Source: Alphaproteobacteria bacterium (lineage in GTDB: Bacteria > Pseudomonadota > Alphaproteobacteria > Rhizobiales > JAKIUO01). Taken from it: 60,657 nucleotides of DNA. Below the pieces are notes generated by a model. The model saw nothing but the letters and a program-made list of their open reading frames with translations, ran no database searches and was not told the origin of the DNA. The stretch is taken from contig JAJRPI010000008.1 of the NCBI GenBank assembly GCA_024280895.1, positions 1 through 60,657 of the forward strand. Reading direction: 5' to 3'. This document shows, piece by piece, positions 41,726 through 59,510 of the stretch; within the stretch, counting starts at the first letter, position 1; each line of letters begins with the position of its first letter. Position numbers and translations under genes: made by a program.

Positions 41726-42343
41726 TCAATTTGATACGGTATTTTTATAGAAGTTAGAAAGCGCTGCGAGCTCTTTAAGTGTAAAAGGATTGCGCAGACC
41801 GATGGTTCGGTCTCCCCGCACACCAACAATGAGGCGGGCCAAAAATTCCTGTCCTGTTTGCTGGCGTGCTTGTTCAAACAGGTTGAAGGCGGGGCGCTCA
41901 ACATCTGTAACGGGATCATCGTGACAAGCGGCGCAATAGGTTTCGTGCAATCCTCGTGCGGTCTTCTCGTCTTTGACCATCGGCAATGCCATCAATGGAT
42001 AGCGCTTTGACGTCGTTTCCAATCGAGCAATAAATTCAACCAGATTATTGACACCAAAGCTTTGCGCCAACTGCCTGATATTTTTTTGGTTCTGCATATC
42101 AATGAGCTGATTATTTGCGTCAGCAATTCTTATTAAAATAACAAGGCTGGCAAGCCCTCCCCTGATCCTGTCGGCAAGGCCCTTTTTCTGGCTGACCGTC
42201 AGATTCTTCGAACTGTGAAATTTCCTGGCATCTCCTAAGATCACCAAAATCTCAGCCGCAACCCTCCGATCATCCCTTTGGGTATCATGCAAATCATCCG
42301 CCAAAGAGCACGGCATTTGCATCATCACAAACAGGCATAGCAT
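41726..42343 (-). CDS. monohaem cytochrome c-like protein
   Basis: A 205-residue protein with a hydrophobic N-terminus ending in CSLADD, so probably exported. A helical stretch (about 25-130) precedes a C-terminal cytochrome c domain with the haem motif YCAACHDDP near residue 136 and PFTLKELAALSNFYK at the end. No distal methionine is obvious. The ATG used gives a signal with no basic residues; the frame continues upstream without ATG, GTG or TTG but with Arg residues and an AAGGAG 10 nt before a CTG, so the true start is uncertain. Last gene of the sulfur operon, a possible electron acceptor for it. Confidence 0.8.
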   Translation of the reverse strand: MLCLFVMMQMPCSLADDLHDTQRDDRRVAAEILVILGDARKFHSSKNLTVSQKKGLADRIRGGLASLVILIRIADANNQLIDMQNQKNIRQLAQSFGVNNLVEFIARLETTSKRYPLMALPMVKDEKTARGLHETYCAACHDDPVTDVERPAFNLFEQARQQTGQEFLARLIVGVRGDRTIGLRNPFTLKELAALSNFYKNTVSN

Positions 42344-42362
42344 CCCCCAAAAGAGGGCGCGA

Positions 42363-42551
42363 TTATATCGTAAATATATGATCAGCTGCCAAAATCTCCT
42401 TCATTACTTTGTCCCAGCCATCAGGGGTGAACTTGTCTGAATTTTTGAGATCAATCATCTTCGCATTGGGCAGTTTGTTTTTTGCCGCATCGATGATCGG
42501 ATCGCTTGGCAATAAGCCGGTTTTCAAGATGAGGTAGGATGTCTTGCTCAT
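42363..42551 (-). CDS. small DsrH/TusB-like protein
   Basis: Sixty-two residues beginning MSKTSYLILKTGLLPSDP and ending ILAADHIFTI. Its start overlaps the stop of the DsrF-like gene (ATGA). Size, position and a final beta-strand-like end resemble DsrH/TusB, the third subunit of the DsrEFH sulfur-transfer complex. It has no cysteine, whereas DsrH/TusB proteins usually carry one. The assignment rests mostly on context. Confidence 0.5.
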   Translation of the reverse strand: MSKTSYLILKTGLLPSDPIIDAAKNKLPNAKMIDLKNSDKFTPDGWDKVMKEILAADHIFTI

Positions 42552-42832
42552 ATGTTTATCACTCCGTCTGCTTGCTGTATCGCCCTGGCAAGTGCCTCGC
42601 TATCAAGTAGGTTCAAAATATCGGCCATCTCGGGGATTGTGGTTTCTGGTTCAATATCCGATAATTCCAGCAATTCTGCCGTCTCGCTCTCCATAATCTC
42701 CAAAGAAAGCGGCTGGCCGGTAAACACCAGAGCAACCTCGTGCCCAAAAATGGTCAGGCCCGCTGCAACGCGCATCGCTTCAAGCGGCGCACGGTTTGAC
42801 AGCACCAATAGATTTTTCTTCCTTGGCTCCAT
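42548..42832 (-). CDS. DsrF/TusC-like protein without cysteine
   Basis: From the ATG at 42832 (GGGAGGA 6 nt upstream) the protein has 94 residues. It begins KKNLLVLSNRAPLEAMRVAAG and continues with VALVFTGQPL and ELLELSDIEPETTIPEM, in line with the DsrE/F fold. No cysteine is present, so it cannot itself carry persulfide. It lies between the DsrE-like and DsrH-like genes with overlaps of a few nt, as expected for a hetero-oligomer. An upstream TTG start would add only two residues. Confidence 0.7.
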   Translation of the reverse strand: MEPRKKNLLVLSNRAPLEAMRVAAGLTIFGHEVALVFTGQPLSLEIMESETAELLELSDIEPETTIPEMADILNLLDSEALARAIQQADGVINI

Positions 42833-42844
42833 GATCAATCCTCC

Positions 42845-43135
42845 CTACAGGCTGATTATTCTGACGGCCTTGGCCACCAAAGCTGAGTTATCGGTTTGAC
42901 TGCCCTGGGTGATCGGACACGGCATATCCCCCATATGGGCCCGCCAGGATTCATGACACGATACCGCGTCCTGCGCCCCGCTCATCGCAGTGACAAAAGC
43001 TTCATCGCCAAGAGCTTTGACGCCATCATTGGTAAAAAAAACACTCCAGCTAGCCTTGGCCCGTTTCGCAGCTGCCGCCAGTGATTGCGCAATCAACGCC
43101 GCCTGGGGATTCGAGATGATGATTAGAATATCCAT
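42845..43135 (-). CDS. DsrE-family sulfur-transfer protein
   Basis: A 96-residue protein with the DsrE fold pattern: MDILIIISNPQAALIAQSLA, WSVFFTNDGVKALGDEAFV and a C-terminal SALVAKAVRIISL. It has two cysteines, in AVSCHESWRAHMGDMPCPITQG. One of these is probably the persulfide carrier, as in DsrE/TusD. It follows the rhodanese-like gene after 3 nt. It is the only one of the three small DsrE/F/H-like proteins that has cysteine. Confidence 0.78.
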   Translation of the reverse strand: MDILIIISNPQAALIAQSLAAAAKRAKASWSVFFTNDGVKALGDEAFVTAMSGAQDAVSCHESWRAHMGDMPCPITQGSQTDNSALVAKAVRIISL

Positions 43136-43138
43136 GCT

Positions 43139-44014
43139 TTACCTCTTTGCTTGTGTCTGAAGACGGAAAAAAAACATGACAGCCGACAAGGCGACAACGA
43201 GAACCAAAAACCCAAAAATTATTTTTTTAAAAGGGATCTCTGATGTTCTGGAATTATCCGACTTTTTCCAGCCCGACCATCCCCCCAGCAAGGCTTTCAC
43301 CGGCATATCTGCACTTTCAAGACGGGCCAGCGCAGCGATGCCATCCTTACTATCCCGACCATAAACAATGGCGTCCTTGCCTCTGGTCATCGCTACAAAT
43401 TTTTGCGTCTCAATTGGCAGAGCCATCGATCCCGTAATTTGGCTTTCGTTCTCAAACTCTTGACGTTGGGCTTTGATGCGTATGTCAAAAATCGCCAAGG
43501 GTTTGTCTTCGCTGATCATCTGCGCCAGCTCGTTAGCTAAAATCAGAGCTTGATCGCGCATCAGCGAGCGAAATACGTTCTCACGTGTTTTCGAGCCTCG
43601 TTCACCCGCCTGCAAAACCACTGTAGCCAGACTTGATATGGCGGGCATCAAAATCGAAATCCTGCGCTGCCCAGCCAGATACAGCACACCGGCGACAAAT
43701 TCTTTTTCCTCACGATTGCCGCCAACCACAAGCACATGTTCGGCGCCCGTCAATCCAATCGTACCCAGCAGCCATAAAATGCCACTAAAATTCGCTAATG
43801 CTCCCGAGCGTGTCAAAAAGCTGTTCGCAGGTAAACATCTTGCACGGCTGAGCGATGCTTTCTCACACAATTCATATGCCCGGACATCGATCACAATGTG
43901 ACTTTTCGTATTCGCAGAGGACGTAAAGTCAATGACGCTGGCTTGCACAACCTCGTTTTGAATGCTCACAAAAACCAGGCTGCAACAGATCAAAAGTACC
44001 CTAACAACCTTCAA
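43139..44014 (-). CDS. membrane-anchored double rhodanese-like protein lacking catalytic cysteines
   Basis: From a TTG at 44014 with AAAGG 6 nt upstream, the protein has about 291 residues. It has a signal-like N-terminus (MKVVRVLLICCSLVFVS), two rhodanese-like repeats and a C-terminal membrane segment (IIFGFLVLVVALSAVMFFF). In repeat 1 IVIDVRAYELCEK starts the domain, and in repeat 2 LAIFDIRIKAQRQ does. At the active-site loop, where a cysteine is expected, repeat 1 has VLVVGGNREEKE and repeat 2 has AIVYGRDSKDG. Both therefore lack the persulfide cysteine. It is more likely a scaffold or binding protein than a sulfurtransferase. Its start overlaps the upstream gene by 14 nt. Confidence 0.75.
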   Translation of the reverse strand: MKVVRVLLICCSLVFVSIQNEVVQASVIDFTSSANTKSHIVIDVRAYELCEKASLSRARCLPANSFLTRSGALANFSGILWLLGTIGLTGAEHVLVVGGNREEKEFVAGVLYLAGQRRISILMPAISSLATVVLQAGERGSKTRENVFRSLMRDQALILANELAQMISEDKPLAIFDIRIKAQRQEFENESQITGSMALPIETQKFVAMTRGKDAIVYGRDSKDGIAALARLESADMPVKALLGGWSGWKKSDNSRTSEIPFKKIIFGFLVLVVALSAVMFFFRLQTQAKR

Positions 44015-44261
44015 AGCGGACCTTTCTAACGGTTCCAGCGGCAATCGTTGGCGGGTTTTCCATATAGTAGTCGGTCAGATCTCTCACAGATACCTTGCCA
44101 AAGCTGCCAAGATCCATCATCCCGACCTTTTCAGGTTCAACAACGGCGTTACCCCTTGCCAAAGCACTGTCCGAAATAGAAGCCATGGGGATCGCAAGGG
44201 CGGCAATTCCCAAACAGGCTGCGAGGACACCTGCACAAAAAATCAAACTAGCTTTATCCAT
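44001..44261 (-). CDS. small exported/membrane protein ending in a C-terminal Gly-Cys
   Basis: Eighty-six residues, with an N-terminal hydrophobic segment (about 5-27, GVLAACLGIAALAIPMA) and a soluble tail of about 55 residues. The tail includes VEPEKVGMMDLGSFGKVSVRDLTDYYMENPP and ends in KVRFEGC. A cysteine as the last residue on a flexible tail recalls the swinging-arm sulfur carriers SoxY and DsrC, although the sequence is not related to either as far as I can see. GGAG precedes the ATG. I do not recognise the family. Confidence 0.72.
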   Translation of the reverse strand: MDKASLIFCAGVLAACLGIAALAIPMASISDSALARGNAVVEPEKVGMMDLGSFGKVSVRDLTDYYMENPPTIAAGTVRKVRFEGC

Positions 44262-44281
44262 TTTGTTTTCTCCTGCTTGTA

Positions 44282-44371
44282 TTACATAGAGTCTTTCAAG
44301 AACCCCAGATACATTCCGATAAATGCTATCACAAATATAAGGATGTGAACCGTCGTTTCCAAATCAGGCAT
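44282..44371 (-). CDS. putative 29-residue membrane mini-protein
   Basis: The reading MPDLETTVHILIFVIAF, continuing IGMYLGFLKDSM, gives one transmembrane helix with an acidic N-terminus and a charged C-terminus. It ends 20 nt before the next operon gene and starts 32 nt after the previous one, filling an otherwise empty gap. The ribosome-binding site is weak (AAGG 9-10 nt upstream). It is below the usual gene-calling limit and needs homologues to be believed. Confidence 0.4.
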   Translation of the reverse strand: MPDLETTVHILIFVIAFIGMYLGFLKDSM

Positions 44372-44403
44372 GGGGCTGCGCCTTTTCTTATAAAGGGTTG
44401 CAT

Positions 44404-44610
44404 CTAATCACCTCGATAGTGGCGGATAAGGGTGTCCAGTGCAATTGGCTTCCCGGTTTCGGGGTGGGCAATTTTTGGAGAAAAATGAGGCACATTTTCT
44501 CTCGTCGTAAACATGCTGGGCGGCGGAAACAGATAGACATAGGCTAACGATATGATGCTAATCGATGCAACAGCTAGCATGTATATCTGTGTCAGTATTT
44601 TTACAGACAT
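44404..44610 (-). CDS. small single-pass membrane protein in the sulfur operon
   Basis: From the ATG at 44610, with AAGGA 8 nt upstream, this gives 68 residues: MSVKILTQIYMLAVASISII and a membrane helix ending AYVYLFPPP. A soluble part follows (FSPKIAHPETGKPIALDTL, then IRHYRGD). It starts 4 nt after the TusA-like gene. A longer reading to 44667 would overlap that gene. The soluble tail faces one side of the membrane and has no cysteine. Family not recognised. Confidence 0.65.
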   Translation of the reverse strand: MSVKILTQIYMLAVASISIISLAYVYLFPPPSMFTTRENVPHFSPKIAHPETGKPIALDTLIRHYRGD

Positions 44611-44614
44611 TGGC

Positions 44615-44926
44615 CTAATCCTTGCGCACATAAACTTGCCAGAGACGATTACCCTTGATGGTTTCAAGATGGGTTGAACCCAATTCTGGCATCATTGGCG
44701 GGATCGCTTCCATGGAAGACGGGTTATCGATGAGAATTTCGATGACCTCATTGGCAGCGGCTGAGCCCAGCGCTTTTTTGGTCATGAGCTGGGGGCGCGG
44801 ACACGAATCTCCAAGGCAATCAATTTGTTGAACAATATCCACCACACTGCCATCGCTCAGTGTCACGGAACGAGCGGGTCCAGGGACGACTTCTTCCTTG
44901 TTTTTTTTACGGCTAAAAAATGCCAT
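44615..44926 (-). CDS. TusA-family sulfur carrier protein
   Basis: The 103-residue protein has a basic/flexible N-terminal extension (about 1-30, FSRKKNKEE) and then a TusA domain. The persulfide-carrying cysteine is in the CPxP-type motif DSCPRPQLMTKKAL near residue 42, and the domain ends with NRLWQVYVRKD. Ordinary TusA has about 80 residues. TusA proteins hand sulfur between rhodaneses, DsrE-type proteins and acceptors. It lies 11 nt after the YeeE-like half gene, so sulfur imported by that transporter is its likely source. Confidence 0.9.
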   Translation of the reverse strand: MAFFSRKKNKEEVVPGPARSVTLSDGSVVDIVQQIDCLGDSCPRPQLMTKKALGSAAANEVIEILIDNPSSMEAIPPMMPELGSTHLETIKGNRLWQVYVRKD

Positions 44927-44937
44927 GAGACTTTCCT

Positions 44938-45561
44938 TTATACGAGTTCTTTTTCTGTTTTTGAGGGAACTGATACGACCTTGTTCACACTGTTTTCTTT
45001 TTTGAGTATGGCGCGATAAATCGCATAAAGAACCGCCACTTGAATAAGCCCGAAACCAAGCGCTGGAATCTTAAACTTTTCCTGCAAGGTCGCGGCGTTG
45101 GAAAAACCAAATTGCAAAGCTTCAAGATTTGGCTCACCGGTCATGCTGGCGGGAGCGGGCGGCCAGTAATTTATGGACCACAAGAGCGAAAACAAAAACA
45201 TGCCGATAAACGTAAACAGCAACGCCCACATCGCTCCGACATTTCCCTCTCCCGCTTTCACCCATGTTGATACGGTACAGGCTCCGGCCAGCACCATGCC
45301 AATGCCGAATATGAAAAGGCCGATCATCTGGTTGAGACCAACGTCAAAATTCATGGGGTGTCCCTGCCCAATGGACATGAAAGACGTAAATCCCACCGTC
45401 AGGATCATCATCGCCACCAAAAGAGCCTTGGTATTGCGAAAACTCTTGAACAGCATAGCATCGCGCAAAGCGGCCGCGTTACAAAACCTTGAGCGTTGCA
45501 CCAACACTCCAACGCACGAACCAAAGATGAAGGCCAGCAGACATTCTCCCAGAACCGACAT
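44938..45561 (-). CDS. YeeE/YedE-type sulfur transporter, half corresponding to the N-terminal part
   Basis: A 207-residue membrane protein with about five or six hydrophobic segments. FGSCVGVLVQRSRFCNAAALRD and GMVLAGACTVSTWVKAGEG match the first half of thiosulfate transporters of the YeeE/YedE family, including the conserved cysteines. The full-length family has about 350-400 residues; here the two halves are separate genes. GGAGG is 8 nt before the ATG. It probably pairs with the product of the upstream gene to import thiosulfate or sulfane sulfur. Confidence 0.88.
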   Translation of the reverse strand: MSVLGECLLAFIFGSCVGVLVQRSRFCNAAALRDAMLFKSFRNTKALLVAMMILTVGFTSFMSIGQGHPMNFDVGLNQMIGLFIFGIGMVLAGACTVSTWVKAGEGNVGAMWALLFTFIGMFLFSLLWSINYWPPAPASMTGEPNLEALQFGFSNAATLQEKFKIPALGFGLIQVAVLYAIYRAILKKENSVNKVVSVPSKTEKELV

Positions 45562-45564
45562 GGC

Positions 45565-46056
45565 TTAGACCTCCAATATTCGTTTGTAAATCGCAGAGCC
45601 AACCCAAGCTCCCGCGATAATTCCGGTGATGGCCAGATAACCGCCCATATTCATTTGCGGCGTCAGACCAAAGAAGGTCGAGACATTGCAGACAAATGCG
45701 AGGCGAATACCAAACCCCATCAGCAAACCGCCAATGGTGATCATCACCCATTCTGAAAGACGCTTTGGAATGCGCAGATAAAACTCTTTGGAAAGCACCG
45801 CCGAAACAAACGCCCCAAAGAGCATTCCAAGGCTGATATATATCTTCCAGTATCCCCAGGAGGGCGGGAAAACCAGATGCCAAAACGGGATATTATCAAT
45901 CTTGTCACCTAGTACGGCCTTGGCGGCAAGACCCGTCATCATCGTCTCCCCGCCTCCTACAGTCCACGCTCCAATCGCCACGAAAAGAAAAATATCAAGT
46001 ATGGCGATTGCAATAAGCGCGACGGTAGGATCAAGAGTTTTCTTGAAAAATTCCAT
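45565..46056 (-). CDS. YeeE/YedE-type sulfur transporter, half corresponding to the C-terminal part
   Basis: From the ATG at 46056, with GGAG 5 nt upstream, the protein has 163 residues and about four or five hydrophobic segments. GGLLMGFGIRLAFVCNVSTFFG matches the conserved cysteine loop of the second half of YeeE/YedE proteins. It is transcribed before the N-terminal-like half, so the gene order is swapped relative to the fused protein. The gap to the next gene is only 3 nt. A longer start to 46074 is possible but less likely. Confidence 0.85.
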   Translation of the reverse strand: MEFFKKTLDPTVALIAIAILDIFLFVAIGAWTVGGGETMMTGLAAKAVLGDKIDNIPFWHLVFPPSWGYWKIYISLGMLFGAFVSAVLSKEFYLRIPKRLSEWVMITIGGLLMGFGIRLAFVCNVSTFFGLTPQMNMGGYLAITGIIAGAWVGSAIYKRILEV

Positions 46057-46128
46057 TGCAACTCCGGTTCTCAACTAATGAAATTCTGATCAAAGACGTC
46101 CACAAACGGCGACATCAGGAGGTCAGTT

Positions 46129-47076
46129 TTATTGCAGTTTCACTTTCTGCTCAATCGGCAAACCCTTGTCAGCGGACCATTCGAGCATCGAACCATCATA
46201 CATTTTGGATTTTTTATTGCCCATGATTTCGTGAGAAACGAACCAGCCCAGACTTGCCCAATGACCCGTATTGCAAAAATTTATTTGCTCGGCATCTGTT
46301 TTGACACCGATTGTGTCATACAGTTTGGCCAGCGTCAGTTTCTTGCGGAAAGTTCCGCCGCCATTAACCGTCATCCAGTTTTCAGGAAAATTCTTTGCCG
46401 TAGGTATAGTGCCAAACCGCTTGGCCAGCCGATGACGGTTTACACCAACATATTGACTGTTAGGACGATTGTCGACTAGGGTCGTACTGGATTTCATAGC
46501 TCGCTGCACATCTGCTTTGGTTGCAAGCATTTCCTTGCGGAAACTGGCCTTGAATGATTTCGCAGAGATCTTGGTTAGCCCTTTGGCAAGCGGATTAATC
46601 GGTTTCTTGGTTTTTTTATCGACGGCCTTGGTGTAGGCAACCATCCCGCCATTTAGCAATGATACATTGTCATGACCAAGCACTTTAAAAGTCCAGTAAA
46701 TGCGCGTTGCCGTTCCCACATCAAGGGCTTTGCCGCCATTGGGAACGACGACCACATGCGACGAATTGTCGATACCAAGCCCGCCAATCAGTTTTTCAAG
46801 TTTTGGGATCGGTGCCAGCTGTCCAGCTGTTCCGCCAGCATCCTTTGTTCTCCAGCCATCTTTTAAATAATTGGTCCAAACAGCTCCTGGAATATGTCCA
46901 CGCAAATAATCGGCTTTGGATTTTCCAGCCAGTTTTCCGCGCACGTCGAGAAAAACGATACCGGGTTTGCCAATATTATTTTTCACCCATTCAACGTCAA
47001 CCATTGGCTCAGCGGCGAAAGCTGTGCTCATAAAGCCGACCATAGCAAGTCCAAACGGTACTATAATTTTTCTCAT
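46129..47076 (-). CDS. periplasmic tandem-rhodanese sulfurtransferase
   Basis: The 315-residue protein has a signal peptide (MRKIIVPFGLAMVGFMSTAFA) and two rhodanese domains. The first (about 30-150, VEWVKNNIGKPGIVFLDVRG) has VVVPNGGKA at its active-site loop and no cysteine. The second (about 185-305) carries the catalytic cysteine in INFCNTGHWASLGW. This is the usual arrangement of an inactive first and an active second domain. It is the first gene of the sulfur operon and would mobilise sulfane sulfur from thiosulfate or polysulfide in the periplasm. AGGAAG precedes the ATG. Confidence 0.92.
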   Translation of the reverse strand: MRKIIVPFGLAMVGFMSTAFAAEPMVDVEWVKNNIGKPGIVFLDVRGKLAGKSKADYLRGHIPGAVWTNYLKDGWRTKDAGGTAGQLAPIPKLEKLIGGLGIDNSSHVVVVPNGGKALDVGTATRIYWTFKVLGHDNVSLLNGGMVAYTKAVDKKTKKPINPLAKGLTKISAKSFKASFRKEMLATKADVQRAMKSSTTLVDNRPNSQYVGVNRHRLAKRFGTIPTAKNFPENWMTVNGGGTFRKKLTLAKLYDTIGVKTDAEQINFCNTGHWASLGWFVSHEIMGNKKSKMYDGSMLEWSADKGLPIEQKVKLQ

Positions 47077-47175
47077 TGGTTTCTTCCTTCTGTGATTGCT
47101 GCTGTCACGTTAAAACTTAGCAAAGAAGCATCTGCAAGAGGTAGTATTTATTGGCAACACGAGAAAATTGGTAAA

Positions 47176-47205
47176 TTGACAGAAGCAGGGGCAGCCCCCT
47201 ATTCT
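47176..47205 (+). promoter_or_regulatory. putative promoter of the RHH regulator with a palindrome in the spacer
   Basis: TTGACA (47176-47181), an 18-nt spacer and TATTCT (47200-47205) lie 25 nt before the regulator start. The spacer contains GGGGC-A-GCCCC, an 11-bp palindrome that could be an operator for autoregulation. Confidence 0.45.
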
Positions 47206-47229
47206 ATAAGTGGTAAAGGAGCTCAACTG

Positions 47230-47526
47230 ATGTCGATCTATTTAGAAGCAGATGATTTTCTTCAACATATGTTCAATGCTTGTACATTTGATCAGATCCA
47301 GGACTTTGTACCTGAGCGGCGCGGATTTCGGATTCACGGCCACTCGACTTCCTTGCGACTGGAGCGCGTTTTCTGGACCGTACTAGAAAGCATGGCCGAA
47401 GAAATGAATATGACACTTCCAGGGCTAGTCATACGCATCCACGACCAGTGCATGATCGCAAATGATAAAAACCTTTCCTCATGCCTGCGCGTTATTTGTA
47501 TGAAATACATCAATGTTTACAGCTAA
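47230..47526 (+). CDS. ribbon-helix-helix domain protein, probable regulator of the sulfur operon
   Basis: The chosen ATG at 47230 is preceded by AGGAG at 8 nt and gives 98 residues; upstream reading runs into the divergent gene. The pattern RGFRIHGHSTSLRLERVFW, ESMAEEMNMTLPGLVIRI and NLSSCLRVICMKY matches the alphaproteobacterial RHH_4 type, with an RI-GH-TS-LE beta strand and two helices. Such proteins bind DNA as dimers. The N-terminus is longer than usual by about 25 residues. It is divergent from the sulfurtransferase gene, which suggests local control. Confidence 0.8.
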   Translation: MSIYLEADDFLQHMFNACTFDQIQDFVPERRGFRIHGHSTSLRLERVFWTVLESMAEEMNMTLPGLVIRIHDQCMIANDKNLSSCLRVICMKYINVYS

Positions 47527-47806: not shown

Positions 47807-47884
47807 TGGTCGGAGCGATAGGATTTGAACCTACGACCCCCGGTCCCCCAGACCGGTGCGCTAACCGGGCTGCGCCACGCTCCG
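47807..47884 (-). tRNA. tRNA-Pro (anticodon GGG)
   Basis: On the minus strand the acceptor stem CGGAGCG pairs with CGCTCCG. The anticodon arm is CCGGT-CTGGGGG-ACCGG with GGG at 34-36, the T-loop is GGTTCAAATCC and the CCA is encoded. The flanking 280-nt stretches (47527-47806 and 47885-48164) show no gene. Confidence 0.97.
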
Positions 47885-48146: not shown

Positions 48147-48170
48147 CGCGCTCCAGGAAAAGGAATGCCG

Positions 48171-49712
48171 ATGCCCAAGATATTCGCCGCTGTATTGATC
48201 CTGCAATTCTTTGCCATCACCCTCACTTTGAACGCTCAAGCCGCAAATAAACGCGTTGCGCTGGTCATTGGCAATTCCGCCTATACTCATGCCGCCCCTT
48301 TGAAAAACCCAGAAAACGACGCTCGGGAAATCGAGAAAAAGCTCAAAACACTCGGCTTTGATGTTGTCATGGGGATCAATCTCAAACATCGTCAATTCGC
48401 CCGTGTTATTGGCAAATTCAAACAAAAGCTGGCTCTATCGGACGTGGCGCTGTTTTTTTACGCCGGGCACGGTTTGCAGCTCAAGGGGCGCAACTATCTG
48501 ATGCCGGTAGATGCGCAGCTTGACGACGAAACGTCTCTTGATTTTGAAGCAGTGCAGCTCAACACGATTTTGCGTTTGATGGAGCGACGCCAGCGCATCA
48601 ATATCGTCTTTCTCGATGCCTGCCGCAACAACCCAATCGCCCGCAATCTCGCTCGCTCTATGGGCACCAGATCCGTCTCGGTCGGACGCGGCCTTGCACC
48701 GGTTGAATCTGGCGTTGGCACGCTCATTGCCTACGCGACGCAGCCCGGTAATGTTGCCCTTGATGGCAACAGTACCAACAGCCCGTTCACCCGCTCCCTC
48801 ATCAAACATATTTCAACGCCGGCTCTCGACATTGCCTTGATGATGCGCCGGGTTCGACAAGATGTCATTGGGGAGACCGGCGGCCAACAAATACCGTGGC
48901 AACATTCGTCGCTGACCACCCCTTTCGTGTTCAATGAACAAGCACCTGCCCCCGTGGCAGTTCAAGCGCCAGTCCAAGTGCCACAAATCTCTGCCAGACC
49001 AAGCAGTACATTCTCTTCGTCCGACATCGAAATTGCCTGTTGGCAATCCGCAACGACACAAGGCACTAAAGAGGCCTATCAGGCCTATATCAATAAATTC
49101 CCCAATGGTAATTTCGCGTCCTTGGCCAAAATAAAATTAAACCAATTTCGGCGTATAGCAGCATTAAACACGCAAACGGCTCAGCCCAAGCAGGCAATGC
49201 GCAATCTTGAACCGCCACAGCCAACCACCCCTTCCAGCCTACCGGAAACCGTCAATTTATCTACAGCTGAAATAGCACGAAACCTTCAAACCGAGCTGGC
49301 ACGTGTTGGATGTCGACCGGGTAGAGTGGATGGAAATTGGGGACGACAGGGCACCAGAGCGCTAGCGCGCTTCAACAAACAGACTGGATCGTCCTTGCCA
49401 ACCGGCACACCGTCTCTGGACGCCATCAAAAAAGTACAATCCCACAAGCGCAATGTCTGTATCGCCGCCATTCCAACGAAAATTGATAACTCGAAACTCA
49501 AGGCAAAAACGAAATCAAAGAGCAAGAAAAAAACGGCCTCGGTAAAAAAGTCTAAATCCAGTTCCAGAGGCAAAAAATGTAAATATGAACGCATCGGCCC
49601 TTGCGAAGCCAGGGTCTGTGCTATCTTGGGCAACAGAGGAGAATGTGGGTTTATCAATGCCGCCACCTATTGCAAAAAAGGTGGAAAGTTTCGCCGAAAA
49701 ATTTGCAGATAA
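48171..49712 (+). CDS. caspase-like (peptidase C14) exported protein with peptidoglycan-binding-like domain and Cys-rich tail
   Basis: I use the second ATG (AGGA 6 nt upstream), which gives 513 residues; the ATG two codons earlier is also possible. A signal peptide ends near LNAQAANK. The caspase domain (about 27-255) begins KRVALVIGNSAYTHAAPL and has the catalytic dyad in FYAGHGL (His about 100) and DACRNNP (Cys about 151). A proline/glutamine-rich linker follows. A peptidoglycan-binding-1-like repeat (about 363-405: LARVGCRPGRVDGNWGRQGT) comes next. Last is a Lys/Ser-rich stretch and a tail with six cysteines in the final 45 residues. Family members are suspected envelope proteases; this role is inferred. 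Confidence 0.88.
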   Translation: MPKIFAAVLILQFFAITLTLNAQAANKRVALVIGNSAYTHAAPLKNPENDAREIEKKLKTLGFDVVMGINLKHRQFARVIGKFKQKLALSDVALFFYAGHGLQLKGRNYLMPVDAQLDDETSLDFEAVQLNTILRLMERRQRINIVFLDACRNNPIARNLARSMGTRSVSVGRGLAPVESGVGTLIAYATQPGNVALDGNSTNSPFTRSLIKHISTPALDIALMMRRVRQDVIGETGGQQIPWQHSSLTTPFVFNEQAPAPVAVQAPVQVPQISARPSSTFSSSDIEIACWQSATTQGTKEAYQAYINKFPNGNFASLAKIKLNQFRRIAALNTQTAQPKQAMRNLEPPQPTTPSSLPETVNLSTAEIARNLQTELARVGCRPGRVDGNWGRQGTRALARFNKQTGSSLPTGTPSLDAIKKVQSHKRNVCIAAIPTKIDNSKLKAKTKSKSKKKTASVKKSKSSSRGKKCKYERIGPCEARVCAILGNRGECGFINAATYCKKGGKFRRKICR

Positions 49713-57156: not shown

Positions 57157-58011
57157 CTAGCGTAACAGCAAAACTGGCACGGATGCGTTACGGATGACAT
57201 TGGTTGTCGTGCTGCCAACCAGAAAACGGCGGATCGTCGAGTGGCCATAGGCCCCCATAATCAGCATATCAATTTTGTGGGCGGCGCGATAATCACATAA
57301 AATGGTTTCGACCTCTCCCCCGATGATACTTGCTGGCGCATCGAAGCCCGCATCCTCCAGCACTTCTTTTGCCCAATCGAGCTGAATTTGATTGCTCGTA
57401 TTGTCCTCCCCCACCATCACGATATGACATGGCAATCCCTTAAACAGCGGGCTTTGCGCCACCATCTCGACCCCCTTGCGAGTGGTCAAGCTGCCATCAA
57501 AAGCCAACATGACCCGCTGGGGTGCGGTAAATTCCGGTGTCGTAATGAGGATCGGGTGCTGCATGGTGCGCACGACATTTTCCAGGCGTGACCCCGTGTG
57601 ATCGCCAAGTTTTTCGTTATGCTTGCCCAGCACCAGCAAACGGATGCGCTCATCCATATCAGCAAGCGTCTCGACCAGACCACCATGACGCTGTGAGATG
57701 ATGGGTTTGGCAACCCCGTCTTTAATGGCTCGCTGTTTAGCCTCGGCCAGCATCAAGCGCCCCTGCTCAAGCGCCAGCTTGCCGCGTTGTTCATCAAGGC
57801 TGGAAAGTTCTTCCAGCAGGGTGGAGCGCGATCCCAGCGCCAGATTTCCGCTATAATCAGGCTTTGTGGGATATTGCGATTTATCCAGCACGTGCAGGAT
57901 TTCCAGCGGCGCCTGCATGGCAAGAGATGCCCATGAGGCCATATCACACACGGCCATGGAAATATCAGTGCCATCAATACAGGCCACGACATTACTGGTT
58001 TCAATGCTCAT
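57157..58011 (-). CDS. universal stress protein with two UspA domains
   Basis: A 284-residue tandem Usp protein. The second domain (about 155-280) starts QRVMLAFDGSLTTRKGVEM and ends with DMLIMGAYGHSTIRRFLVGS and TTTNVIRNASVPVLLL, giving the ATP-binding motif GxxGxS-type (GAYGHST). The first (about 5-145) has VVACIDGTDISMAVCDMA and LLVLGKHNEKLGDHTGS. It starts 20 nt after the SulP gene and is probably in its operon. UspA proteins often accompany SulP transporters. Confidence 0.94.
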   Translation of the reverse strand: MSIETSNVVACIDGTDISMAVCDMASWASLAMQAPLEILHVLDKSQYPTKPDYSGNLALGSRSTLLEELSSLDEQRGKLALEQGRLMLAEAKQRAIKDGVAKPIISQRHGGLVETLADMDERIRLLVLGKHNEKLGDHTGSRLENVVRTMQHPILITTPEFTAPQRVMLAFDGSLTTRKGVEMVAQSPLFKGLPCHIVMVGEDNTSNQIQLDWAKEVLEDAGFDAPASIIGGEVETILCDYRAAHKIDMLIMGAYGHSTIRRFLVGSTTTNVIRNASVPVLLLR

Positions 58012-58031: not shown

Positions 58032-59510
58032 CTAATGGTCCATCAGCTTGTCGACGAGTTCAGGCTTGTCATATACGGCAAAACGATCAACGATGGTGGC
58101 GCTGGCTTCGTTCAACCCCAAGAGCTGCACTTCCGTTCCCTCACGGCGAAACTTCAACACAACCCGATCAAGGGCCGCTACCGCGCTGATATCCCAAAAA
58201 TGCGCTTCGGTGAGATCAATCACTACCTTGTCGAGCACTTCCTTGAAATCAAAAAACTCGGTGAACTTGTAGGAGGAGGCAAAAAACACCTGCCCGACCA
58301 CCTGATAGACCCGCAAGCGGCCATCGTCAGAAAGGTCAGACTGCACATATTTGTACTGGGCGATTTTGTTGGCAAAAAACATGCCCGACAAAAGCACACC
58401 AACAAACACGCCATAAGCCAGATTATGAGTGGCCACCACAACCACAACGGTGCTGGCCATGACAATCGAGCTGGACACAGGGTTCTTTTTCATATCCTTG
58501 ATCGAGCCCCAGCTAAAGGTGCCAATCGACACCATGATCATCACGGCAACCAGTGCCGCCATAGGGATCTGCTTGACCCATTCCCCAAGAAACACCACCA
58601 GAATAAGTAAGAACACCCCTGCCACCAAAGTCGACAGGCGCGTGCGTCCCCCCGACTTCACATTGATCACAGACTGACCAATCATCGCGCAACCGGCCAT
58701 GCCACCAATCAGGCCAGAGGCGATATTGGCAACGCCCTGCCCTTTGCATTCGCGGTTCTTATCACTACCCGTATCTGTAAGGTCGTCGATGATCGTCGCC
58801 GTCATCAAGCTTTCCAGCAGGCCGACAATGGCCAGCGACACCGAGTATGGCAGGATAATTTTCAAGGTCTCAAGGCTGAACGGCACATCGGGCCATAAGA
58901 ACATCGGCAAGGTATCTGGCAAATCGCCCATATCGCCAACGGTGCGAATATCAAGATTGAGCATAATAGCGACAATGGTCAGCACAACAATGGTTATCAG
59001 CGGAGATGGCACAGCCTTGGTCAGATAGGGCAATCCGTAAATGATGCCAAGGCCCCCCGCCGTCATGGCGTAAACATGCCAGGTGACATTGGTCAGCTCG
59101 GGTAATTGCGCCATGAAAATGAGGATCGCCAGCGCATTGACAAAGCCCGTGACCACCGAGCGCGATACAAAGCGCATCAAGGAGCCAAGCTTCAAATAGC
59201 CAGCACCGATCTGCAACAGACCAGTCAGCAAGGTCGCAGCCATTAAATATTGCAGGCCATGATCCTTCACCAGCGTCACCATCAGCAATGCCATGGCGCC
59301 TGTCGCCGCCGAGATCATGCCGGGGCGACCGCCTAGAAAAGCGGTCACCACTGCAATGCAAAATGAGGCGTAAAGCCCGACCTTGGGGTCAACTCCTGCG
59401 ATAATCGAAAAAGCAATCGCTTCGGGAATGAGCGCCAGCGCCACAACGAGCCCGGCCAGCAGGTCCCCGCGTACATTGCTGAACCAGGTGTCTTTTACGG
59501 AAATGATCAT
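58032..59510 (-). CDS. SulP-family inorganic anion transporter with STAS domain
   Basis: A 492-residue membrane protein with 10-12 hydrophobic segments and a C-terminal STAS domain (about 400-490). SulP signatures are [40 protein letters not shown] and the conserved [20 protein letters not shown]. The STAS part holds [20 protein letters not shown], lacking the phosphorylatable Ser after the usual D-x-S pattern that here reads DIS. The anion, such as sulfate or bicarbonate, cannot be told. Length and motifs fit transporters of the bicarbonate/sulfate group. Confidence 0.92.

Follow-up and report, generated by a model that had tools for sequence, protein, structure and literature searches.

How does sulfur cross the inner membrane before it is oxidised in the cytoplasm? 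This step has been called poorly understood (PMC11582611), and a locus in a 60,657-nucleotide stretch of DNA from an Alphaproteobacteria bacterium (assembly GCA_024280895.1, contig JAJRPI010000008.1, positions 1-60,657; the whole stretch is referred to as the window) raises it anew. Twelve neighbouring genes run there on the minus strand from position 47076 to 41726, in the order R1, yedC, yedN, tusA, mA, mB, mC, R2, E1, E2, E3 and CY (Table 1), with a divergent regulator opposite them. A first-pass annotation, made from the letters alone, had placed this block and its ribbon-helix-helix (RHH) regulator, which proves to be of the RHH_4 family, correctly at 41726-47526, but it counted eleven genes where we count twelve. 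We find that the operon is real, highly conserved and apparently undescribed. According to our best reading of its gene anatomy, which we hold to be somewhat probable, it would import sulfane sulfur across the membrane and relay it so as to feed the cytoplasmic reverse-Dsr pathway. Gaps between the genes reach +72 bp at most, and mC and R2 share 14 or 44 bp, according to which start is chosen for R2.

Conservation was assessed by a locus scan with a profile of yedN, the N-terminal half of the YeeE/YedE transporter, against named genomes, of which 80 of 124 relatives were kept; yedN is present in every locus by construction, while the other operon genes are not. Three loci (L006, L007 and L008) duplicate the contigs of L012, L018 and L039; neither the 82 distinct loci nor the operator counts include them, whereas the counts over 85 loci and the residue rows do, and the gene counts over 85 loci take in short contigs as well. 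As 30 of the 82 distinct loci are too short for gene order to be read, 52 long ones were usable; R1 of L079, which lies on the opposite strand, was entered by hand and then checked. All twelve genes are present in 50 of these 52 loci, and 46 share the order yedC-yedN-tusA-mA-mB-mC-R2-E1-E2-E3-R1-CY. The window, with R1 first, represents a minority form seen in two of the 52, and other arrangements of a complete set occur in L079, where R1 and CY lie on the opposite strand, and in L062, where mB was not placed. Because 46 long distinct loci over several classes share one order, the co-occurrence is not a matter of chance, and the free variation of neighbours that would have spoken against an operon was not what we saw.

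The block was found in Alpha-, Beta- and Gammaproteobacteria, its carriers in the scan including Sedimenticola, Magnetovibrio blakemorei, Thiorhodococcus, Thiobacillus, Thioglobus, Rhodobium orientis, Maritimibacter, SAR324 and others. Two loci titled SAR324 hold ten and eleven operon genes up to the contig end and no RHH gene. An earlier search among 61 relatives found R2 in five genomes, with all 13 genes together in the other four, and a search of the relatives for mC added a sixth carrier, G019. A draw of genomes spread evenly over the phylum gave one further carrier, G730, complete and in the majority order. Among the families flanking the loci none is widely common outside the block, the most widespread being a histidine kinase near 14 of 79 loci.

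The candidate sulfur carriers are marked by near-invariant cysteines. R1 and R2 were assigned by their position in the locus; iterated profiles of the two rhodanese genes merge. Cys268 of R1 is kept in 69 of 70 rows. The second double rhodanese, R2, had been described as cysteine-less, which applies to its catalytic loops only: neither loop has a cysteine in any of the 78 rows (the second domain being absent from 13), but Cys60 is present in all 78 and Cys70 in 77. Its AlphaFold2 model (pLDDT 90.2) has a rhodanese fold and matches two-domain rhodaneses. The window protein carries an N-terminal and a C-terminal hydrophobic helix, the C-terminal stretch recurs in 44 of 78 proteins, and a quarter of the R2 open frames are at most 216 amino acids (aa) long, cut contigs counted. 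All 80 rows of the membrane protein mC, 77 of them distinct copies, have Gly-Cys as their last two residues; sequence searches gave no Pfam or NCBIfam family for mC and no credible PDB relative. Alignment of mA revealed no conserved cysteine. Its profile resembles that of mC with an hhalign probability of 72%, and the two may be paralogues, a point on which we do not rely. R1, R2 and CY are predicted from their sequences to be exported, R1 on account of its N terminus, and the topology of mA and mC was likewise read from sequence.

The transporter consists of two genes, encoding proteins of 163-169 aa and 207 aa that cover the two halves of Sulf_transp. In yedN, Cys27 is found in 84 of 85 rows, Cys95 in all 85 and Cys7 in 80; in yedC, Cys123 is kept in 82 of 83. 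Cys27 and Cys95 align with cysteines of the Spirochaeta thermophila thiosulfate transporter TsuA (6leo), and Cys123 with a cysteine of its C-terminal half. At the presumed inner end of the route, TusA has Cys42 in 84 of 84 rows and Cys37 in 83 of 84. The family assignments of R1, both YeeE halves, TusA and R2 are supported by Pfam; no significant Pfam family was found for mA, mC, E2, E3 or CY.

E1 is a DsrE-type protein by fold, as judged from its model. The AlphaFold2 structure (pLDDT 97.4) superimposes on Allochromatium vinosum DsrE (2HY5_A) with Z 12.3 and an rmsd of 1.9 over 96 residues, values close to the 12.4 and 1.9 given for the cable-bacteria DsrE (PMC13047784), and its best PDB structure matches are mostly members of the DsrE/DsrF family, with E below 0.001 in one only. 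It ties with other DsrE/YchN-type proteins, reaching Z 13.0 to YchN. At the level of sequence, E1 scores 18.3 bits against Pfam DsrE, below the cut-off of 22.7, has no match to TIGR03012 (canonical DsrE) at E up to 0.1, and found nothing credible in a PDB sequence search. Cys60 is present in 74 of 74 rows and Cys73 in 69 of 74. The alignment of the E1 profile with that of canonical DsrE covers 34 columns at 10% probability and stops short of the cysteine, so that the equivalence of E1 Cys60 and DsrE Cys78 rests on position by eye. Alignments of E2 and E3 showed no conserved cysteine, and neither has a significant match in NCBIfam or another family. CY bears the CxxCH heme motif in 66 of 67 rows, without a conserved second heme ligand, and weakly matches cytochromes c in the PDB (best E 2.5e-5).

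The regulator has conserved cysteines of its own: Cys18 in 59 of 59 rows, Cys74 and Cys85 in 57 and Cys90 in 54. Where enough upstream sequence was available (67 loci), the RHH gene stands alone in 46 and a histidine kinase alone in 13; one locus has the two together, and seven have none of them. In L087 the histidine kinase sits downstream. When up to four mismatches are allowed, an 18-bp site, TTGGCAATAAATACCACC, is found in 50 of 56 RHH loci and in none of 21 loci without the RHH gene (best five mismatches), and one shuffle of each of the 77 upstream regions never came below six. The consensus was built from mostly the same RHH loci, and the independent controls are therefore the 21 RHH-less loci and the shuffles. 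Within the genome of the window the exact pattern matches only at 47140-47157; three more sites appear at two mismatches, and the reversed control pattern gives none. Some observations speak against the site as an operator, namely six RHH loci at five to seven mismatches (including L067 and L079, which are rearranged), the lack of a match at two mismatches in G015, and G002, in which the reversed control has 2 matches against 5 real ones. Given how the site and the gene co-occur across loci, it is plausible that the RHH protein binds it. Loci lacking the RHH gene often have a histidine kinase (13 loci), a Phosphonate-bd periplasmic protein (10 loci) and, in those read, a response regulator; L017 (4725-8354) combines the kinase with a periplasmic protein of the Phosphonate-bd type and a response regulator of the sigma-54 type.

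What any imported sulfur might be used for is suggested by the company the operon keeps. We examined 55 carriers (50 of the 80 scan loci and five relatives), and the loci track the Dsr pathway. Evidence of dsrAB is present in 52 of 55, with dsrA over the cut-off in 49 and dsrB or contig-end pieces of dsrA in three (G000, which is the window's own genome, G452 and G447). In G000 two contigs terminate in the start of dsrA and a third carries dsrB close to its end (C9, C56 and C43), and dsrA is thus probably a repeat broken by assembly. Canonical dsrE is over its cut-off in 50 of 55 carriers and follows dsrB by less than 300 bp in the examples compared (G000, G015 and G446); from this adjacency we infer that the dsrAB of the carriers is of the oxidative type. 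soxB is over the cut-off in 42 of 55 carriers and soxC in 11, and in 34 of the 42 SoxB genomes SoxC is not over its cut-off. With SoxB but no SoxC, sulfane sulfur remains and has to be taken into the cell. Among the 61 relatives 15 have dsr genes (14 by dsrA over the cut-off, and G000 by dsrB), and all six carriers of mC are among these 15 (hypergeometric 9e-5).

We propose that R1 may take up periplasmic sulfane sulfur, whether from thiosulfate, polysulfide or a Sox-bound form, as a persulfide on Cys268. The membrane-held mC, through its Gly-Cys tail, and R2, through its Cys60/Cys70 pair, would hand the sulfur to the split YeeE/YedE channel, whose cysteines (yedN Cys27 and Cys95, yedC Cys123) would transfer it to Cys42 of TusA at the inner face. 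This carrier could then load Cys60 of E1 in an E1-E2-E3 trio, which would deliver to DsrC or to canonical DsrEFH, while CY might accept or donate electrons in the periplasm. Control of the operon would lie with the RHH protein, acting via the 18-bp operator, and its conserved cysteines may sense sulfur; in some lineages a sensor kinase system may stand in its place. This reading rests on the joint travel of the twelve genes (to which G730 adds), on the tie of the carriers to dsr genes and often to soxB without soxC, on the near-invariant cysteines of R1, mC, R2, yedN, yedC, TusA and E1, on the alignment of the transporter cysteines with TsuA together with the DsrE fold of E1, and on published analogues of single steps (PMC11582611, PMC11073785 and PMC13293266). 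A bolder version is possible, though on balance doubtful: that all parts form one undescribed persulfide relay, comprising a membrane-anchored carrier with a Gly-Cys arm, a catalytically dead rhodanese that has two cysteines of its own, a YeeE channel made from two genes and a DsrEFH-like trio of a third class, wired to a cytochrome c, governed by a cysteine-rich RHH repressor with its own operator and supplying the reverse-Dsr pathway beside canonical DsrEFH.

Several observations weigh against import and relay as the function. Two long loci are incomplete (L049 is without R2 and CY, L066 without mB). G019 (L113, 2000-7650) has neither E1 nor E2 and only a short remnant of R2; its yedN matched in two frames, and the locus is either a decaying copy or an assembly fault. 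Three carriers (G477, G483 and G485) have no dsrA. Nine of the 15 dsr-bearing relatives lack the operon, and in the phylum draw, in which 52 of 398 genomes have dsrA and G000 has dsrB, the operon occurs in two of these 53 and is absent from 51. A draw from the class found it in one of 385 genomes, the window's own, and yedN occurs in 8 of 116 genomes of the family to which Thiorhodococcus belongs, counted irrespective of dsr. As most sampled dsr genomes do without it, the operon is an accessory of reverse-Dsr sulfur oxidizers and not a general importer. The carriers already hold canonical DsrE, so E1-E2-E3 may do something else, and E2 and E3 are only putative DsrE-like partners, ascribed by look. 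Finally, the direction of flow is not fixed by sequence.

That last point leaves room for the opposite course, in which sulfur would pass from cytoplasmic carriers to the periplasm, for instance into stored sulfur; carriers apparently stand on both sides, but the YeeE-type proteins characterised so far import (PMC11582611, PMC11073785) and PMC13293266 interprets YeeE together with TusA and a DsrE trio as an import system, which makes outward flow very improbable. Another possibility is an import of a different kind: the split YeeE would bring in whole thiosulfate and TusA would cleave it, as in E. coli TsuA/TsuB (YeeE/YeeD), all other proteins being accessories. Both halves do match TsuA models and structures, the three aligned TsuA cysteines have a role there (PMC11582611), and YeeD splits thiosulfate (PMC11073785). 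We nevertheless consider this unlikely, since the scores fall far below the TsuA cut-offs, TusA matches TsuB with an E of only 0.07, intact import would presumably need neither a periplasmic rhodanese nor a terminal-cysteine protein, and thiosulfate failed to load TusA or DsrEFH II of cable bacteria (PMC13293266).

It is also conceivable that the module mainly senses or detoxifies sulfur, like SoxT1B, for which signalling has been proposed (PMC11582611), and is not a main energy route. A dedicated regulator with conserved cysteines and an operator, and a patchy distribution, would fit such a role, yet twelve structural genes with a cytochrome and carriers on both sides are much for a sensor, and the tie to dsr is strong; we regard it as quite unlikely. 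The names YedE/YedF and Ext call to mind selenium or tellurium handling, as R1 matches ExtH and both transporter halves match YedE models. This reading was rejected because all the model scores lie far under their cut-offs (ExtH 57.9 of 200 bits; YedE/FdhT 59.9 and 71 of 350), and with a genomic tie that is to dsr and sox it is scarcely credible. Import and relay of sulfane sulfur towards the reverse-Dsr pathway is the reading that we retain.

The first-pass interpretation is partly supported: import and relay hold up as a reading, with the Dsr tie added, and the cytochrome is a candidate electron sink, but the close relative of the core had not been named. This is the published YTD or DsrEFH type II cluster (PMC13293266, PMC13047784), which as yeeE-tusA-dsrEFH type II is known from cable bacteria, Desulfobacterota and Nitrospirota. 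The likeness lies in a YeeE transporter, TusA, a DsrE with a single key cysteine and two small proteins side by side, and a gene block of this type, with yeeE as two genes, is present in 46 of the 52 long loci. By this analogy the core of the operon would work as a variant of a known import module. Type II DsrEFH acts in vitro as a sulfur transferase and hands sulfur on to DsrC (PMC13293266). The differences, judged like the likeness by gene content and by fold, are a split transporter, six more conserved genes and a regulator. The usual setting of type II is reductive dsrAB without DsrEFH type I, and the canonical dsrE of 50 of 55 carriers here speaks against that setting. We take the cultured carriers of the present operon not to be sulfate or sulfite reducers or disproportionators. 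By comparison, the 46 cultured type II carriers of PMC13293266 are of these kinds, and in the genomes covered there type II DsrEFH goes with reductive dsrAB in 73.9% and with oxidative dsrAB in 4.7%. We infer that the present trio was probably not counted among the type II proteins of that paper, whose type II subtype 1 includes Pseudomonadota; an overlap with subtype 1 is possible.

Other known systems share single features. SoxT1A, SoxT1B and TsuA-TsuB belong to the YeeE family, have the same three cysteine positions and adjoin a TusA-like partner; they differ in that SoxT and TsuA are single chains of 330-350 aa with nine helices, where we see two genes. To our knowledge TsuA-TsuB has none of the relay proteins. 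SoxT1A mutants are unable to oxidise sulfur, a 56-aa membrane protein, Hden_0678, is discussed together with soxT1A (both PMC11582611), and YeeE works with the TusA-like YeeD (PMC11073785). PmpA and PmpB, like yedN and yedC, are two short proteins matching the two YeeE halves, but each has about 130 aa and one conserved cysteine (PMC11582611), against 163 and 207 aa and three cysteines in the N-terminal half here. With canonical DsrEFH and TusA of Allochromatium the operon shares the DsrE fold, the TusA partner and the Dsr context; E1 differs by its lack of a TIGR03012 match and by the canonical copy that most carriers hold elsewhere.

A published operon of the same order would have contradicted the claim of novelty, and none with the whole gene set was found in the open-licence text of PubMed Central, a search that did not cover supplements (including Table S5 of PMC13293266). 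Passages of PMC10952691, PMC11237559 and PMC9796809 refer to YeeE genes, and the present operon does not appear in them. That the combination is not one recognised from Sox, Dsr or sHdr loci also stands, though no search for shdr or lbpA was made. What seems new is the outer part of the relay and the switch, in particular the Gly-Cys-ended membrane protein, the two near-invariant cysteines of R2 and the 18-bp operator. Since the set of twelve genes is nearly fixed, its cysteines and regulator site can be named, and the cultured Magnetovibrio and Sedimenticola possess it, the step in which sulfur crosses the membrane becomes directly testable, and there appears to be a second DsrE-type trio in organisms that already hold the canonical one.

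Table 1. Features of the operon in the window; counts give the loci, out of 85, in which the gene was detected (for mC, E1, E2, E3 and CY by profile).
Feature	Position	Strand	Description	Basis or remark
RHH_4	47230..47526	+	Ribbon-helix-helix regulator, 98 aa, four conserved cysteines	Pfam RHH_4 E 1.9e-21
Operator	47140..47157	-	Likely operator TTGCCAATAAATACTACC, between regulator and operon	Consensus from 53 intergenic regions
R1	46129..47076	-	Exported-looking double-domain rhodanese, active loop CNTGHWA	Pfam Rhodanese E 1.3e-22, two stretches
yedC	45565..46056	-	YeeE/YedE half, C-terminal half of Sulf_transp	Pfam E 1.9e-22, profile 165-310 of 310
yedN	44938..45561	-	YeeE/YedE half, N-terminal half of Sulf_transp	Pfam E 1.5e-25, profile 1-156 of 310
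tusA	44615..44926	-	TusA-like carrier, CxGDSCPRP motif	Pfam TusA E 3.7e-16
mA	44404..44610	-	One-helix membrane protein, conserved PETG...HYKG tail	82/85
mB	44282..44371	-	29-aa one-helix protein	80/85
mC	44001..44261	-	One-helix protein, Gly-Cys C-terminus	80/85
R2	43139..44044	-	Double rhodanese without catalytic cysteine	Start uncertain: TTG at 44044 or 44014
E1	42845..43135	-	DsrE-like, candidate active Cys60, GSQT motif	74/85
E2	42548..42838	-	Small protein, DsrE-like look	73/85; putative assignment
E3	42363..42551	-	62 aa, possible short DsrH-like subunit	72/85; putative assignment
CY	41726..42343	-	Exported-looking, one c-type heme motif	67/85

Some features of the surroundings may be added. 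A tRNA-Pro gene lies at 47807-47884, 280 bp past the RHH gene, the G+C content of the operon is slightly below that of most of the window, and three of four genus mates are without R2 and mC; taken together, these observations suggest that the segment may have been acquired. Further on, at 48165-49712, the window encodes a caspase-domain (Peptidase_C14) protein that also has a peptidoglycan-binding stretch. A SulP-type sulfate permease (58032-59510) adjoins a universal stress protein (57157-58011) some 10 kb away from the operon; the permease is a possible exit for sulfate, or it may be there by chance.

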